From Dysgonomonas hofstadii (GTDB taxonomy: Bacteria > Bacteroidota > Bacteroidia > Bacteroidales > Dysgonomonadaceae), in assembly GCF_014196915.1 (NCBI RefSeq), contig NZ_JACIEP010000002.1, positions 434,001 to 498,000 on the forward strand: DNA of 64,000 nucleotides. Direction: 5' to 3'. Shown here in pieces: positions 1,720 to 14,501 of the stretch; position 1 is the stretch's first letter, and each line of letters begins with the position of its first letter. Under the pieces are notes generated by a model. That model did no database searches and had not been told where the DNA came from. It saw only the letters and a program-made list of their open reading frames with translations. A program made the translations under genes and the position numbers.

Positions 1720-2910
1720 TTAATTTTTTGTATAAATAATTCTACCATTCACTATCGTTGTCTGAACTGAAATTTCTGAATCGAATATGATAATATCTGC
1801 GTCTTTTCCTACCTCCAATGAGCCCTTATTCTTATCTACACCAAGAATACGGGCCGGATTCTGAGTAATCATTTTCACAGCATCATGCAAAGGAACTTCC
1901 GCTATTTGCGTCATTGTTCGCACCAGACGGTCAGCCGTAGCCACACTACCTGCAAACGCCGAGCGATCCGGCAGTTTTGCGACACCATCTTCTACTATGA
2001 CTTTCTGCCCTTTATCGTTGCTTCCCAAGATGTATTCACCATCCGGCATACCCGCTCCCCTCATTGAATCCGTACATAAAGCAATCGTGTGAGGTGCCTT
2101 GAATTTGCATACATATTGTAAAAGTGATTTCGGCAAATGAATACCGTCTGCTATGATCTCAACAGTCATATCATCGATCATATAAGCGGCCTCGATAGAT
2201 CCCGCATAGCGGTAAGCATTGCGACGGGTAATGGACGACATACAGGAATATAAATGTGTGACGTGTGTGAAGCCATGTTTGTATGCTTCGACAACTTCTT
2301 CATACAGGGCATCGGTATGCCCTAAAGAAGCTAATATACCTTTAGACCGCAACAGATCGCCTAACTCCAATGCGCCATCCAGCTCTGGAGCCATACTCCA
2401 ACGGATAATATGTTTTCCGCCTATAGCCAGTATTTCGTTATATTCCTCAGGTTCAGGGTTACGCAGATACTTAGGGTCTTGCGCTCCTCGCTGACTGTAT
2501 GCGAAATAAGGGCCTTCGAGATGTAGTCCTAAGAGCCCTGCTCCATCGGTATTTAACTCTTTTGCCTGCTCGTATACGGAGAATGTTTTCAACAATTCCC
2601 CGGTTGTACTTGTCAAAGTCGTAGGCACAAGGCTTGTAGTACCGTATTTTGCATGAGTTATGGCTGCTCCCAGATAGGCTTCGACTGTATTATCCATAAA
2701 ATCATAACCTCCGGCACCATGCGTATGCATATCAATAAAACCCGGAGATACATAATTTCCTTTCGCATCGATTACGACATCGGATTCATTATACTCCCCG
2801 AAAGCCCCCTCCCCTATTTGAGAAATAGTACTCCCGGCCAGAATAATAAAGCCCTCGTTCAGTATCCTGTCAGACAGGATAAGAGTCGCATTTTTTATTA
2901 TTGTTCTCAT
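1720..2910 (-). CDS. nagA: N-acetylglucosamine-6-phosphate deacetylase
   Basis: This amidohydrolase-superfamily enzyme removes the acetyl group from GlcNAc-6-phosphate in the cytoplasm, giving the NagB substrate. The 396-aa length is normal. It shows the metal-binding HTHG motif at residues 62-65, HLEGPYF with the metal Glu, LGHTDA and THVTHLYSCM with metal His residues, and ALCTDSMRGAGMPDGEY with the catalytic Asp. The usual HLFNAM block reads HLYSCM, so the enzyme is somewhat divergent. It is translated just ahead of nagB, probably as one transcript, and lies downstream of a XylR-like regulator on the same strand. A TAatTTTG box about 50 bp upstream may be its own promoter. Confidence 0.9.
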   Translation of the reverse strand: MRTIIKNATLILSDRILNEGFIILAGSTISQIGEGAFGEYNESDVVIDAKGNYVSPGFIDMHTHGAGGYDFMDNTVEAYLGAAITHAKYGTTSLVPTTLTSTTGELLKTFSVYEQAKELNTDGAGLLGLHLEGPYFAYSQRGAQDPKYLRNPEPEEYNEILAIGGKHIIRWSMAPELDGALELGDLLRSKGILASLGHTDALYEEVVEAYKHGFTHVTHLYSCMSSITRRNAYRYAGSIEAAYMIDDMTVEIIADGIHLPKSLLQYVCKFKAPHTIALCTDSMRGAGMPDGEYILGSNDKGQKVIVEDGVAKLPDRSAFAGSVATADRLVRTMTQIAEVPLHDAVKMITQNPARILGVDKNKGSLEVGKDADIIIFDSEISVQTTIVNGRIIYTKN

Positions 2911-2960
2911 TCAAATTTCAGTTATAAGGTATCAGTCAGAACATCGATCTAGTAATTGTT

Positions 2961-2968
2961 CAAAATTA
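2961..2968 (-). promoter_or_regulatory. Candidate -7 box of a Bacteroidota promoter for nagA
   Basis: On the minus strand this reads TAATTTTG, matching the TAnnTTTG box used by the Bacteroidota primary sigma factor. It lies about 50 bp ahead of the nagA start. No convincing -33 TTTG is seen at the right distance, and the box can occur by chance in AT-rich DNA. Confidence 0.3.
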
Positions 2969-3158
2969 ATCTTTTAAATTTTCAGAATAAGGAATGTAAT
3001 GCGAATGACTGTTGTCATAAGACGTCAAAATTTCATTTTTGAGGAAAATACATTACAATAAGGTTAACCGCGTGTGTTTGCTTTTGTTTATACTGATAAG
3101 GATGTGTCTTCTTTTCTCCACATTATTATATGGAAGGATATAATTATCACTGAAATTT

Positions 3159-11992: not shown

Positions 11993-13021
11993 ATGATGAG
12001 AACACCGATAAATGAACAGGAGCTGAACGATCTAATATCACAGCCCTGGAAGAAACTAATTGACTTTTTTAAAGAATTACCAGGTGATATTTCCATACTC
12101 GGGGCAAACGGAAAGATTGGATTATCCCTGTCGCTGATGGCGAAAAAAGCTATCGAAATGGCCAATGTGGATAAGAAGCTTTACGCTGTTTCCCGCTTTT
12201 CTTCCGAAGAAGGCAGATTATTGCTGGAAAGTCATGGAATTACCACCATAGCCTGCGACCTGAGCAACAGGGAAGAAGTACAGAAACTACCCAAAACGGA
12301 GAATGTGATCTTCATGGCCGGACGAAAGTTTGGAACAGAAGGTGCAGAGCCTTATACATGGGCGAAGAATGTGCTCGTCCCCGCGATTTGCGTAGAACAT
12401 TTCAAAGAGTCGAGGATAGTAGCTTTTTCAACAGGTTGTGTTTATCCGTTGGTGTCTAAAGAAAGTGGAGGATCAGTAGAGTCTGACCGTCCCGAACCAA
12501 TTGGTGAATATTCGCAGTCGTGCCTTGGTAGGGAACGTGTATTCGAATACTATTCCCTTATCCAAAAGACGCCTGCGCTACTGTTACGGTTAAATTACTC
12601 TACCGACCTGCGATATGGTGTTCTATGCGACATTGCGAAAAAAATATGGAACGACGAACCTGTTATCACTGATAATGAGTACTTCAATATATCCTGGCAG
12701 GGAGATGTGAATAACTATACCTTGCTGTCATTGAGTGAGTGTACATTTCCGGCTAATTACCTGAACATAACAGGCCCTGAAATTCTATCCGTAAAAGAAG
12801 TGGCTGAAGAGATGGCGGAAATAATGGGTAAAAAAGTCGTTGTAAAATGTACTGGAACAGACAGGTCATACCTCAACAATGCTGAAAAGTCTTTCAAATT
12901 GTATGGAAAGCCATCTGTAACGGCAAAAAAACTGATCCGCATGCAAGCAGAGTGGACTATGCAGGGAGGAAAAGAACTGAATATTCCGACTCATTTTGAG
13001 GTTGGTGACGGTAAGTTTTAA
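11993..13021 (+). CDS. NAD-dependent epimerase/dehydratase family protein
   Basis: The 342-aa protein has an N-terminal Rossmann fold of the extended short-chain dehydrogenase type (ISILGANGKIGLSLSLMA with the glycine loop near residue 35) and FMAGRKFG in the fourth strand. VAFSTGCVYP and GEYSQSCLGRE occupy the places of the catalytic Ser and YxxxK; here the expected Tyr is followed by SQSC and no Lys, so catalysis is doubtful or altered. The C-terminal part resembles sugar-nucleotide epimerases. No signal peptide is seen, so it acts in the cytoplasm. Two ATG codons stand in tandem at the start. It closes this gene run before a terminator-like hairpin. Confidence 0.78.
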   Translation: MMRTPINEQELNDLISQPWKKLIDFFKELPGDISILGANGKIGLSLSLMAKKAIEMANVDKKLYAVSRFSSEEGRLLLESHGITTIACDLSNREEVQKLPKTENVIFMAGRKFGTEGAEPYTWAKNVLVPAICVEHFKESRIVAFSTGCVYPLVSKESGGSVESDRPEPIGEYSQSCLGRERVFEYYSLIQKTPALLLRLNYSTDLRYGVLCDIAKKIWNDEPVITDNEYFNISWQGDVNNYTLLSLSECTFPANYLNITGPEILSVKEVAEEMAEIMGKKVVVKCTGTDRSYLNNAEKSFKLYGKPSVTAKKLIRMQAEWTMQGGKELNIPTHFEVGDGKF

Positions 13022-13037
13022 GACCACAGGTCTTTTT
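13020..13037 (+). terminator. Short hairpin terminator after the epimerase-like gene
   Basis: Arms AAGACC and GGTCTT with a 3-nt loop are followed directly by a T run. The hairpin overlaps the stop codon. A second copy of the CTGTGGT sequence at 13061-13067 could pair with the left arm region instead. Confidence 0.55.
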
Positions 13038-13091
13038 ATTACTTTATTGAGAATGTAAATCTGTGGTTAAAATTATTATGATAGATATAAA

Positions 13092-13365
13092 TAATGGTTC
13101 TATTATTAGGAACCTATGCACGGGAAGCTGACGCACTAGTGGCTTTGCCCGGTGGCATTAGGCCGTAGTGCTGGGCACCCGTCAGGTGAAAGGGGCGTGA
13201 AATTAAAAGCGTCCGACAGGACAATCTTTTAATTTAGCCCATGAATCTGTAACGGGTAGCACGGAGGGCGAGCCGCCAAAGCGTTTTTGGTTCCTTTTGC
13301 GGCTTTGGGCAAAAGGAACACAAGCAATCTTCGATTGCGCGTAGTATAAGATAATAGAACGATTA
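13092..13365. repeat. GC-rich structured island with terminal inverted repeats (MITE- or structured-RNA-like)
   Basis: The ends are TAATGGTTCTATTAT (13092-13106) and, inverted, ATAATAGAACGATTA (13351-13365), matching at 14 of 15 positions. The interior is clearly richer in G and C than its surroundings and packed with hairpins. CTGACG/CGTCAG and GCACTA/TAGTGC occur in 13128-13185. AAATTAAAAG/CTTTTAATTT enclose GTCC-GACA-GGAC at 13200-13235. GTTCCTTTTGC/GCAAAAGGAAC lie at 13290-13319 and GCAATC/GATTGC at 13324-13338. No credible protein is encoded. It lies between the epimerase-like and aldolase genes, in a 412-bp gap. A non-autonomous mobile repeat or a structured RNA are both possible. Confidence 0.65.
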
Positions 13366-13433
13366 AGTTTTACGACTATTAACATTAAATATAAAGTTAT
13401 AATCTAAAAACCTATTACTTAAAATACTCTTCC

Positions 13434-14501
13434 ATGAAAATAACAGATATAGATAGCCATTTATTACAACTATTCCGCAAAGGAACAGTAATACCGGCAA
13501 CTCCTCTTGCTTTGACGAAATTACGGACTGTGGACGAAAAATACCAGAAGGCACTTGTGCGTTACCACATCGATTGTGGCGTAGGAGGAATTGCTATCGG
13601 AGTACATTCTACTCAGTTCGAAATACGCGAACATGGCCTATTTGAGGGATTATTAAGCCTTGTTTCCGAAGAAATAGACAAATGGTCGGAATTCCGGGGT
13701 AAGAAGATATTGAAAATCGCAGGTGTTTGTGGGAAGACTGAGCAGGCTTTAAAAGAAGCTACTTTCGCATCGTCAACCGGATATCATGCTGCTTTAGTCA
13801 GCCTTTCAGCATTAAAAGAGAATAGCTTGGATGAACTGATCTTACATTGCAGACAGGTAGCTGAAATAATGCCGATCATCGGCTTCTATATGCAGACATC
13901 GGTAGGCGGTATCAATCTGCCTTATGAATTCTGGAAAGAATTTGCCGCCATCCCTAATGTACTGGGAATAAAGATAGCTCCTTTCGACAGATACAAAACT
14001 TTCGATGTGGTAAGGGCTATCTGCGATGTGGAAAAAGAAAAAGAGATTACGCTATATACCGGAAACGATGACAATATTGTGGCGGATTTGCTGTCTGAAT
14101 ATAAGATAGAAACTTCTACAGGAACAAAAAATATAAGGATAAAAGGAGGCTTGCTCGGGCACTGGTGTGTATGGACTAAAAAAGCCGTTGAACTTCTGGA
14201 TGAGATTCATTCCATAACAGAGTCGGGCAAGGATATACCTCAAAGCTTATTAACCCGTGCCATTCAGATCACTGATTCGAATGCTGCGTTCTTCGATTCC
14301 AAGAATAAGTTTGCAGGATGTATTCCGGGATTGCATGAAGTCCTCTTCAGACAAGGACTGATGACCAATACCTTATGCCTGAACCCGGAAGAAGTATTAT
14401 CAGACGGACAGAAAGAAGAAATATCAAGGGTTTACAATGCATACCCTCATCTCAATGACGACGATTTCGTCCGCTCTAATCTTTCTATGTGGTTAAAATA
14501 A
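13434..14501 (+). CDS. DapA/N-acetylneuraminate-lyase family aldolase
   Basis: The 355-aa TIM-barrel protein has the class I aldolase Schiff-base lysine at K180 (LGIKIAPFD) and the partner tyrosine at Y152 (IGFYMQTS). The N-terminal part carries VIPATPLAL and GVGGIAIGVHSTQFEIRE, the latter typical of an uncharacterised dihydrodipicolinate-synthase-like subgroup. Known relatives split or join pyruvate with an aldehyde, as for 2-keto-3-deoxy sugar acids, sialic acid and lysine biosynthesis. Here the context of a polysaccharide lyase and oxidoreductases favours keto-deoxy sugar acid cleavage over lysine synthesis. The next gene begins 13 bp downstream. Confidence 0.82.
   Translation: MKITDIDSHLLQLFRKGTVIPATPLALTKLRTVDEKYQKALVRYHIDCGVGGIAIGVHSTQFEIREHGLFEGLLSLVSEEIDKWSEFRGKKILKIAGVCGKTEQALKEATFASSTGYHAALVSLSALKENSLDELILHCRQVAEIMPIIGFYMQTSVGGINLPYEFWKEFAAIPNVLGIKIAPFDRYKTFDVVRAICDVEKEKEITLYTGNDDNIVADLLSEYKIETSTGTKNIRIKGGLLGHWCVWTKKAVELLDEIHSITESGKDIPQSLLTRAIQITDSNAAFFDSKNKFAGCIPGLHEVLFRQGLMTNTLCLNPEEVLSDGQKEEISRVYNAYPHLNDDDFVRSNLSMWLK

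Follow-up and report, generated by a model that had tools for sequence, protein, structure and literature searches.

A transposon-like repeat of Dysgonomonas hofstadii appears to carry a structured module found across the Bacteroidota

MITECca01 of Cardinium is a MITE of an IS982-family element, about 240 bp long, in which a short stretch of the parent insertion sequence is kept next to the end (PMC9769881). The intergenic element of Dysgonomonas hofstadii described here resembles it in being short, in lacking a transposase gene, in its many copies and in having ends in common with an IS982-like insertion sequence. Unlike MITECca01, the present element is mostly 500-620 bp at full length and its interior is a structured module of phylum-wide occurrence, here called the arm; and whereas MITECca01 retains sequence of its parent, no clear arm was seen in the present insertion-sequence loci. 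The REP and BIME palindromes are likewise intergenic structured repeats with paired inverted units (PMC6006769), but the element studied here is much larger, pseudoknotted, and provided with terminal inverted repeats and 9-bp duplications. In the same paper, subclass 2.6 of the RAYT transposases, from Bacteroidetes, is described as flanked by atypical structures; in contrast to such REP/Y1 systems, at most one weak arm match lies near the 30 Y1 loci that we searched. The arm is also reminiscent of structured RNA candidates from the human microbiome, which are palindromic, stem from Bacteroidetes and have no known function (PMC8040213), although such candidates as were considered measure 40-132 bp; an overlap in sequence is not excluded. 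Covariation in the arm is of the kind that defines the families of Rfam 15, but none of these families matches the arm at threshold. Among the papers listed by searches of the open-licence PubMed Central literature there was no description of the element, which does not show that it is unpublished.

The window analysed here is a stretch of 64,000 nucleotides of contig NZ_JACIEP010000002.1 (forward strand, 434,001 to 498,000). It contains, between an upstream gene on the + strand without a Pfam family at E ≤ 1e-5 (11993-13021) and a downstream + strand gene assigned to the dihydrodipicolinate synthase family by a Pfam scan (13434-14501), a GC-rich island at 13092-13365 to which an initial annotation, made from the letters alone, had drawn attention. 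Its description of the island is borne out: the ends 13092-13106 and 13351-13365 are complementary at 14 of 15 positions when inverted (93%), the GC content is higher than in the flanks (0.58 at 13100-13199 against 0.28 at 13000-13099 and 0.21 at 13350-13449), the stems at 13200-13235 and 13290-13319 are both present, and there is no credible protein, no ORF of at least 80 aa being listed between the two genes. On either strand the island folds as RNA to an energy far lower than any of 200 dinucleotide shuffles (z = -7.1). The annotation had wavered between a non-autonomous mobile repeat and a structured RNA. The evidence presented below supports a mobile repeat with a conserved structured module as its cargo, and we put the probability of this two-part identity at about 0.62.

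The D. hofstadii genome (5.04 Mb in 44 contigs) has at least 40 places that match the island at E < 1e-39, plus nine short pieces; the number is a lower bound, as 40 of 62 candidates were scored. Most full-length copies are about 500-620 bp long with GCNAATCAGTAGTT as their outermost sequence, according to an all-against-all comparison and a reading of the copies, and this end pattern occurs 133 times in the genome as against 13 times for the reversed control. Anchoring on the last hairpin of the arm delimited 57 elements with paired ends in this and related genomes. Target duplications were assessed in the 45 of them that had at most two mismatches per end and a length above 250 bp: the flanking 9-mers agree at 0.76 of their positions, while an exchange of flanks among elements gives 0.606 (z = 10.1), and lengths of 3-8 gave no signal in the same 45 elements. 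Agreement is complete in seven elements, 8/9 in 14, 7/9 in eight, 6/9 in six and 3-5/9 in ten. This set counts L189 and L190 on each of their strands and includes at least two false left ends (L024 and one of the two L065 entries). An earlier test with loosely defined ends (126 pairs; z = 1.6 at 9 bp) had been swamped by false pairs and was repeated with the anchored elements. Members of the family insert into AT-rich sites with duplication of 9 bp of the target; because these duplications occur together with terminal inverted repeats, the family was moved by DNA transposition. The island is a decayed copy of this multi-copy element, which is without a credible gene.

Other arrangements of the shell were seen in passing. 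Two mini-elements of 61 bp (L044, 401-461) and 52 bp (L045, 344-395) consist of little beyond the two terminal repeats, while L196, L197 and L048 contain a foreign insert with inverted TGTCAT / ATGACA ends, so that one interspersed repeat lies inside another. No match of the element to a plasmid was found. The only phage match is to a Microvirus record (MT135430.1, 29-71), at 93% over 45 nt of the left outer hairpin.

Comparison with the family moves the borders of the window copy. The interval 13092-13365 stands as the extent of the island and fails as that of the whole element, a decayed and left-shortened copy on the + strand whose ends are placed by homology near 13055 and 13383; the 15-bp ends read as termini belong to longer terminal repeats, of which they are only the inner section. 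The left terminal repeat, GTAAATCTGTGGTTAAAATTATTATG...ATGGTTCTATT (13055-13104, + strand), was read against GCCAATCAGTAGTTGAAATTATTATG...ATCGTTCTATT of the copy L009. In the right one (13353-13383, - strand) the inner part, AATAGAACGATTA, is intact and the outer part is eroded. The left end equals the family end at 10 of 14 positions; at the right end no more than 4 of 14 agree. Most of the left half is gone from this copy. Possible 9-bp target duplications, which have no strand, adjoin the element as ATTGAGAAT on the left (13046-13054) and ATTAAATAT on the right (13384-13392). They are identical at six of nine positions, which is not above chance (permuted family mean about 5.5/9).

The neighbouring gene of the window was found in 3 of 25 genomes of the genus at E ≤ 1e-40, the D. 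hofstadii genome included. In Prevotella sp. 10(H), a relative that GTDB places in Dysgonomonas, the gene order is kept and the site is empty of the element. At this empty site (L071, 3790-3990) lies another short sequence, GAGCCTGTTCAAATTTT..., which looks like a repeat and seems unrelated to the element family. The orthologous gap of genome G003 (L153, about 2550-3020) contains another family member, whose ends cannot be recognised, and a third species has none. Either repeated insertion at one place or the rewriting of an old element could account for this gap.

An autonomous element with the same ends exists in related bacteria. A search of eight relatives for paired ends gave, among the matches listed, a 1,060-bp element (L195) with a single ORF of 303 aa, whose protein matches Pfam DDE_Tnp_1 and DDE_Tnp_1_3 above cut-off; the best of its three NCBIfam matches is the IS982 transposase NF033520, at 117.6 bits and thus under the curated cut-off of 130. 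The transposase is present in 15 of 101 genomes of the taxonomic family, and the D. hofstadii genome has no match to it at E ≤ 1e-30. Nineteen transposase loci include seven distinct elements of 1,036-1,064 bp with both family ends in register (L221 shows one of the seven a second time), and the 9-mers flanking these seven agree at 5-8 of 9 positions. The remaining loci are fragments, lie at contig ends or lack such ends (L214, L215). In L218, ends 326 bp apart enclose a transposase fragment, an internal deletion of the insertion sequence. Among the 100 of 133 end sites listed for the D. hofstadii genome, the end pairs noted more than 800 bp apart are those of the long copies L042 and L043, which contain extra arm sequence and no transposase; the ORFs in these two, the longest of 115 aa, traverse arm sequence and were regarded as spurious. 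The non-autonomous element and the IS982-like insertion sequence of about 1,060 bp in relatives have the same ends.

Between these ends, ten full-length elements fold into two large arms enclosed by the terminal repeats; a single covariance model detects the two, which lie on opposite strands. The arm measures about 170-205 nt and is composed of a basal stem, an upper hairpin and a pseudoknotted hairpin, to which a small last hairpin is added in the lineage of the window. The window has only the right arm (13174-13344, + strand), at 184.1 bits the sole match in the window at E ≤ 0.05 to the whole-arm model (R2). All of its parts lie on the + strand. The basal stem, helix 1, pairs ACCCGT (13177-13182) with ACGGGT (13252-13257); the upper hairpin occupies 13200-13235; the 11-bp hairpin, helix 5, occupies 13290-13319, with 5 of its 11 pairs changed on both sides among related arms; and the terminal small hairpin, helix 6, reads GCAATC-TTC-GATTGC (13324-13338). 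The alternative pairing pointed out in the initial annotation is real as well: CCAAAGC (13276-13282), the upstream partner, is complementary to GCTTTGG in the loop of the 11-bp hairpin (13302-13308), and the place corresponds to the pseudoknot of distant copies.

The arm is conserved as a structure. In an alignment of 45 right arms from this genome and its relatives (A1), picked for diversity from 75 found, 25 of 41 consensus pairs are changed on both sides, and 97.8% of cells are paired, compared with 84.7% when the 3' letters are shuffled and 35-50% when the partners are slid; relatedness of the sequences inflates the shuffle comparison, whereas slides keep that relatedness. After realignment of the arms found with R2 (A3; 65 rows, 63 of them distinct), 39 of 41 pairs are changed on both sides (96.3% of cells paired; 67.5% shuffled). 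An alignment of 79 arms from 55 loci outside the taxonomic family of the window (A4; 78 distinct rows, some shared with A3) has 93.4% of cells paired, versus 55.9% shuffled and 46-57% slid, and both partners have changed in 37 of 39 pairs. Fitting to models, as was done for A3 and A4, favours pairing and G-U. Covariation in the stems, a point left for checking when the island was first described, is hence strong, and the arm is a phylum-wide module. The search for further copies, another such point, also came out in favour of the initial annotation, with copies both in the genome and in relatives.

Unpaired parts of the distant arms are also retained. Most of them have in the upper hairpin an asymmetric internal loop of UGUUUGA against GAGUU (CUGUUUGA/GAGUU); [CU]UGUU[UC]GA is present in 45 of 78 distant rows and GAGUU in 62 of 78. 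Each position of UGU..GA is conserved in 0.87-0.92 of 75 rows, the two intervening ones in 0.71 and 0.80. The hairpin of the window (13200-13235) and those of its nearest relatives are without this loop. There is also pairing between the loop of the main hairpin and a segment shortly 5' of that hairpin, in the forms CUUGAU/AUCAAG, CUUGAC/GUCAAG, CUUGAA/UUCAAG, CUGUAGCG/UGCUGCAG and others. The mean length of this helix in 74 distinct distant rows is 4.84, against 4.09 (sd 0.09) with loops dealt to other rows. In rows of the CUUGAx/xUCAAG type, the variable sixth pair is complementary in 37 of 37 cases (UA in 18, CG in 12, AU in 7), and five further distant rows have CUUGA/UCAAG without the variable base. 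Of 75 distinct distant rows, 33 lack the CUUGA/UCAAG form, and in several of these no partner is evident. Within the genus the same test gives little (A1, 5.23 versus 5.10, sd 0.12), because the sequences there are too alike. These pairs are not part of the covariance models. The geometry is that of an H-type pseudoknot, and the upstream pairing could also be an alternative to the hairpin.

Three models were used to trace the arm: R1, made from its last 80 nt, R2, and R3, built from A3. Strong R1 matches are confined to the taxonomic family (4 of 393 genomes of the order), with three weak matches elsewhere. R2 reaches 23 of 393 genomes and 16 of 206 genera of the order, with E-values down to 1.6e-16 in other families, and R3 reaches 70 of 395 genomes and 38 of 171 genera of the phylum at E ≤ 1e-4, D. 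hofstadii included. Among 40 genomes reached through loci, R3 has matches at E ≤ 0.01 in four of seven Bacteroidota, namely Prevotella sp. 10(H) (27 matches), two Zobellia species and Portibacter lacus (weak; best E = 7e-4); at this threshold there are none in the three other Bacteroidota and none in the 33 genomes of other phyla. Rfam 15 has no match to the window at gathering score and none to 13000-13450 at E ≤ 5. In 20 loci (19 distant ones and L065) compared with it at E ≤ 1, no family lies over the arm at threshold, the sole match over an arm being a sub-threshold one to STnc410 on the other strand of L252 (30.2 of 50 bits).

The distribution of the shell is different. An IS982-type end with at most two mismatches accompanies 24 of 30 copies from the D. 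hofstadii genome but only 2 of 55 distant arm loci. None of the 19 transposase loci contains an arm according to R2, and with R3 only L209 gives a match, which is partial, weak (19.8 bits) and at the edge of the locus; therefore the cargo does not seem to derive from the insertion sequence. Several distant arms occur in groups: L316, L320, L347 and L250, all from genomes outside the taxonomic family of the window, have neighbouring copies on the same strand, some of them 300-600 bp apart.

The main competitor to this two-part identity is a purely selfish MITE of IS982 type whose hairpins matter only as DNA. In quasi-palindromes, replication slips and template switching could rewrite one arm from the other and so produce compensatory changes without any RNA function. 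Much in the alignments is compatible with such a process: departures mostly affect the two partners of a pair together (249 cells in A1), whole hairpins have been exchanged between copies, and the full-length elements are near-palindromes of two arms, with arms on both strands also in 7 of the 55 distant loci. However, 42 of those loci have a single arm (13 have more), and palindrome correction alone would not preserve the unpaired loop and the pseudoknot that are common to many distant arms. The bias of the arms in their orientation to the upstream gene, given below, also speaks against the selfish-DNA explanation.

A further distinction is offered by wobble pairs, since pairing as RNA predicts more G-U than A-C cells on the arm's own strand. 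On the stricter set of A1 pairs, those predicted for both strands, the two are nearly equal (15 G-U, 11 A-C), which speaks for selfish DNA. In wider sets G-U outnumbers A-C, with 20 against 5 cells in 67 distinct tails (their last two hairpins), 83 against 16 in A3 and 101 against 33 in A4. The asymmetry is mixed and supports RNA only moderately, because the fitted alignments favour G-U. Overall, the purely selfish element seems improbable to us, yet it is not a reading that can be put aside. That the arm works as RNA is inferred from the conserved loop, the pseudoknot, the wobble asymmetry and the orientation to genes; there are no transcript data.

Orientation was counted in 54 distant loci with one arm taken from each, some of them from a shared genome (L259, a near-copy of L257, was left out). 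The 5' neighbour within 600 nt is in the same sense as the arm in 28 of 39 loci (p = 0.009), and in 22 of these 28 within 180 nt, while the 3' neighbour is in the same sense in 18 of 39; four of the 54 arms overlap an ORF. As distant loci mostly have a single arm that is more often sense to its 5' gene, the arm may work at the 3' ends of messages. We regard this function as possible rather than probable, and it too is inferred. In the D. hofstadii genome, a crude ORF call for 30 copies with long flanks gave the left gene on the + strand in 17 and the right gene in 22. In two related genomes (L251, 1063-1137; L253, 865-939) an arm follows a tRNA gene at a distance of about 0.4-0.5 kb and has homologous genes beside it, so that its place is shared by two species.

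The tendency of arms to sit 3' of genes in sense would also be expected if the arm were an intrinsic terminator of upstream transcripts. This reading was rejected: of 77 arms, only two have at least five consecutive T within 15 nt after the main hairpin, and on the opposite strand none of the 77 does. The window has a terminator-like match on the + strand (13020-13034), which lies outside the arm, between it and the upstream gene. A terminator role for the arm is very improbable. Two minus-strand terminator-like matches lie inside the window arm. The window arm is in sense to the upstream gene, 152 nt 3' of its end, and the upstream message may end before the arm, at the hairpin 13020-13034; on account of this hairpin, a 3'-end function is weakened for the window copy.

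In L343, each of eight arms lies in sense 3' of a gene (one weak minus-strand match of 18.3 bits is left out of this count); in the adjoining L344 it is one of three. Such a series could suggest integron-like attachment sites serving recombination between gene cassettes. The eight scanned genes of L343, however, are unremarkable (glycosyltransferases, radical SAM, polyphenol oxidase and others), and a single arm per locus prevails in distant genomes. We give the attachment-site explanation next to no weight.

Just as little founded is the view that the arms are palindromes of REP type, moved by a RAYT (a Y1 tyrosine transposase), for instance one of the Bacteroidetes subclass 2.6. Genes for Y1 transposases do occur in 11 of 12 arm-carrying genomes, and R3 gives a weak arm match near one of 30 Y1 loci (L282; 21.1 bits, E = 0.0025). 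R2, however, finds no arm in these 30 loci (from 33 matches), so the association has no support from neighbourhood. A 9-bp duplication and long terminal repeats are not known to be features of REP sequences.

Our preferred reading thus remains that of a mobile shell with a conserved structured module. Under this reading, the arm would form the 3' end of an mRNA and shield or process the message, with mobility as a part-time property. In the lineage of the window, two inverted arms may have been captured between IS982-type ends and amplified as a unit, and the window copy would later have lost most of its left half. Extended to the phylum, the proposal is that Bacteroidota share an ancient pseudoknotted element of mRNA 3' ends whose CUGUUUGA/GAGUU loop is read by a protein or by the 3' exonuclease machinery, with protection or processing of transcripts as the outcome, and that transposase ends captured inverted pairs of it in some lineages and so spread a regulatory RNA module as transposon cargo. 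This wider proposal is tentative, and we would sooner expect it to fail in some part than to hold as a whole.

Bacteroidota include major gut bacteria, and knowledge of message ends and message stability in this phylum is limited. The arm covaries at nearly every pair and occurs in 70 of 395 genomes of the phylum and in none of 33 outside it, yet it has no match in the standard RNA library. The RNA and DNA readings make different and simple predictions. If the arm acts only as DNA, it would be a model for the long-term matching of palindromes; if it acts on messages, it would represent a general regulatory layer that transposons can redistribute.
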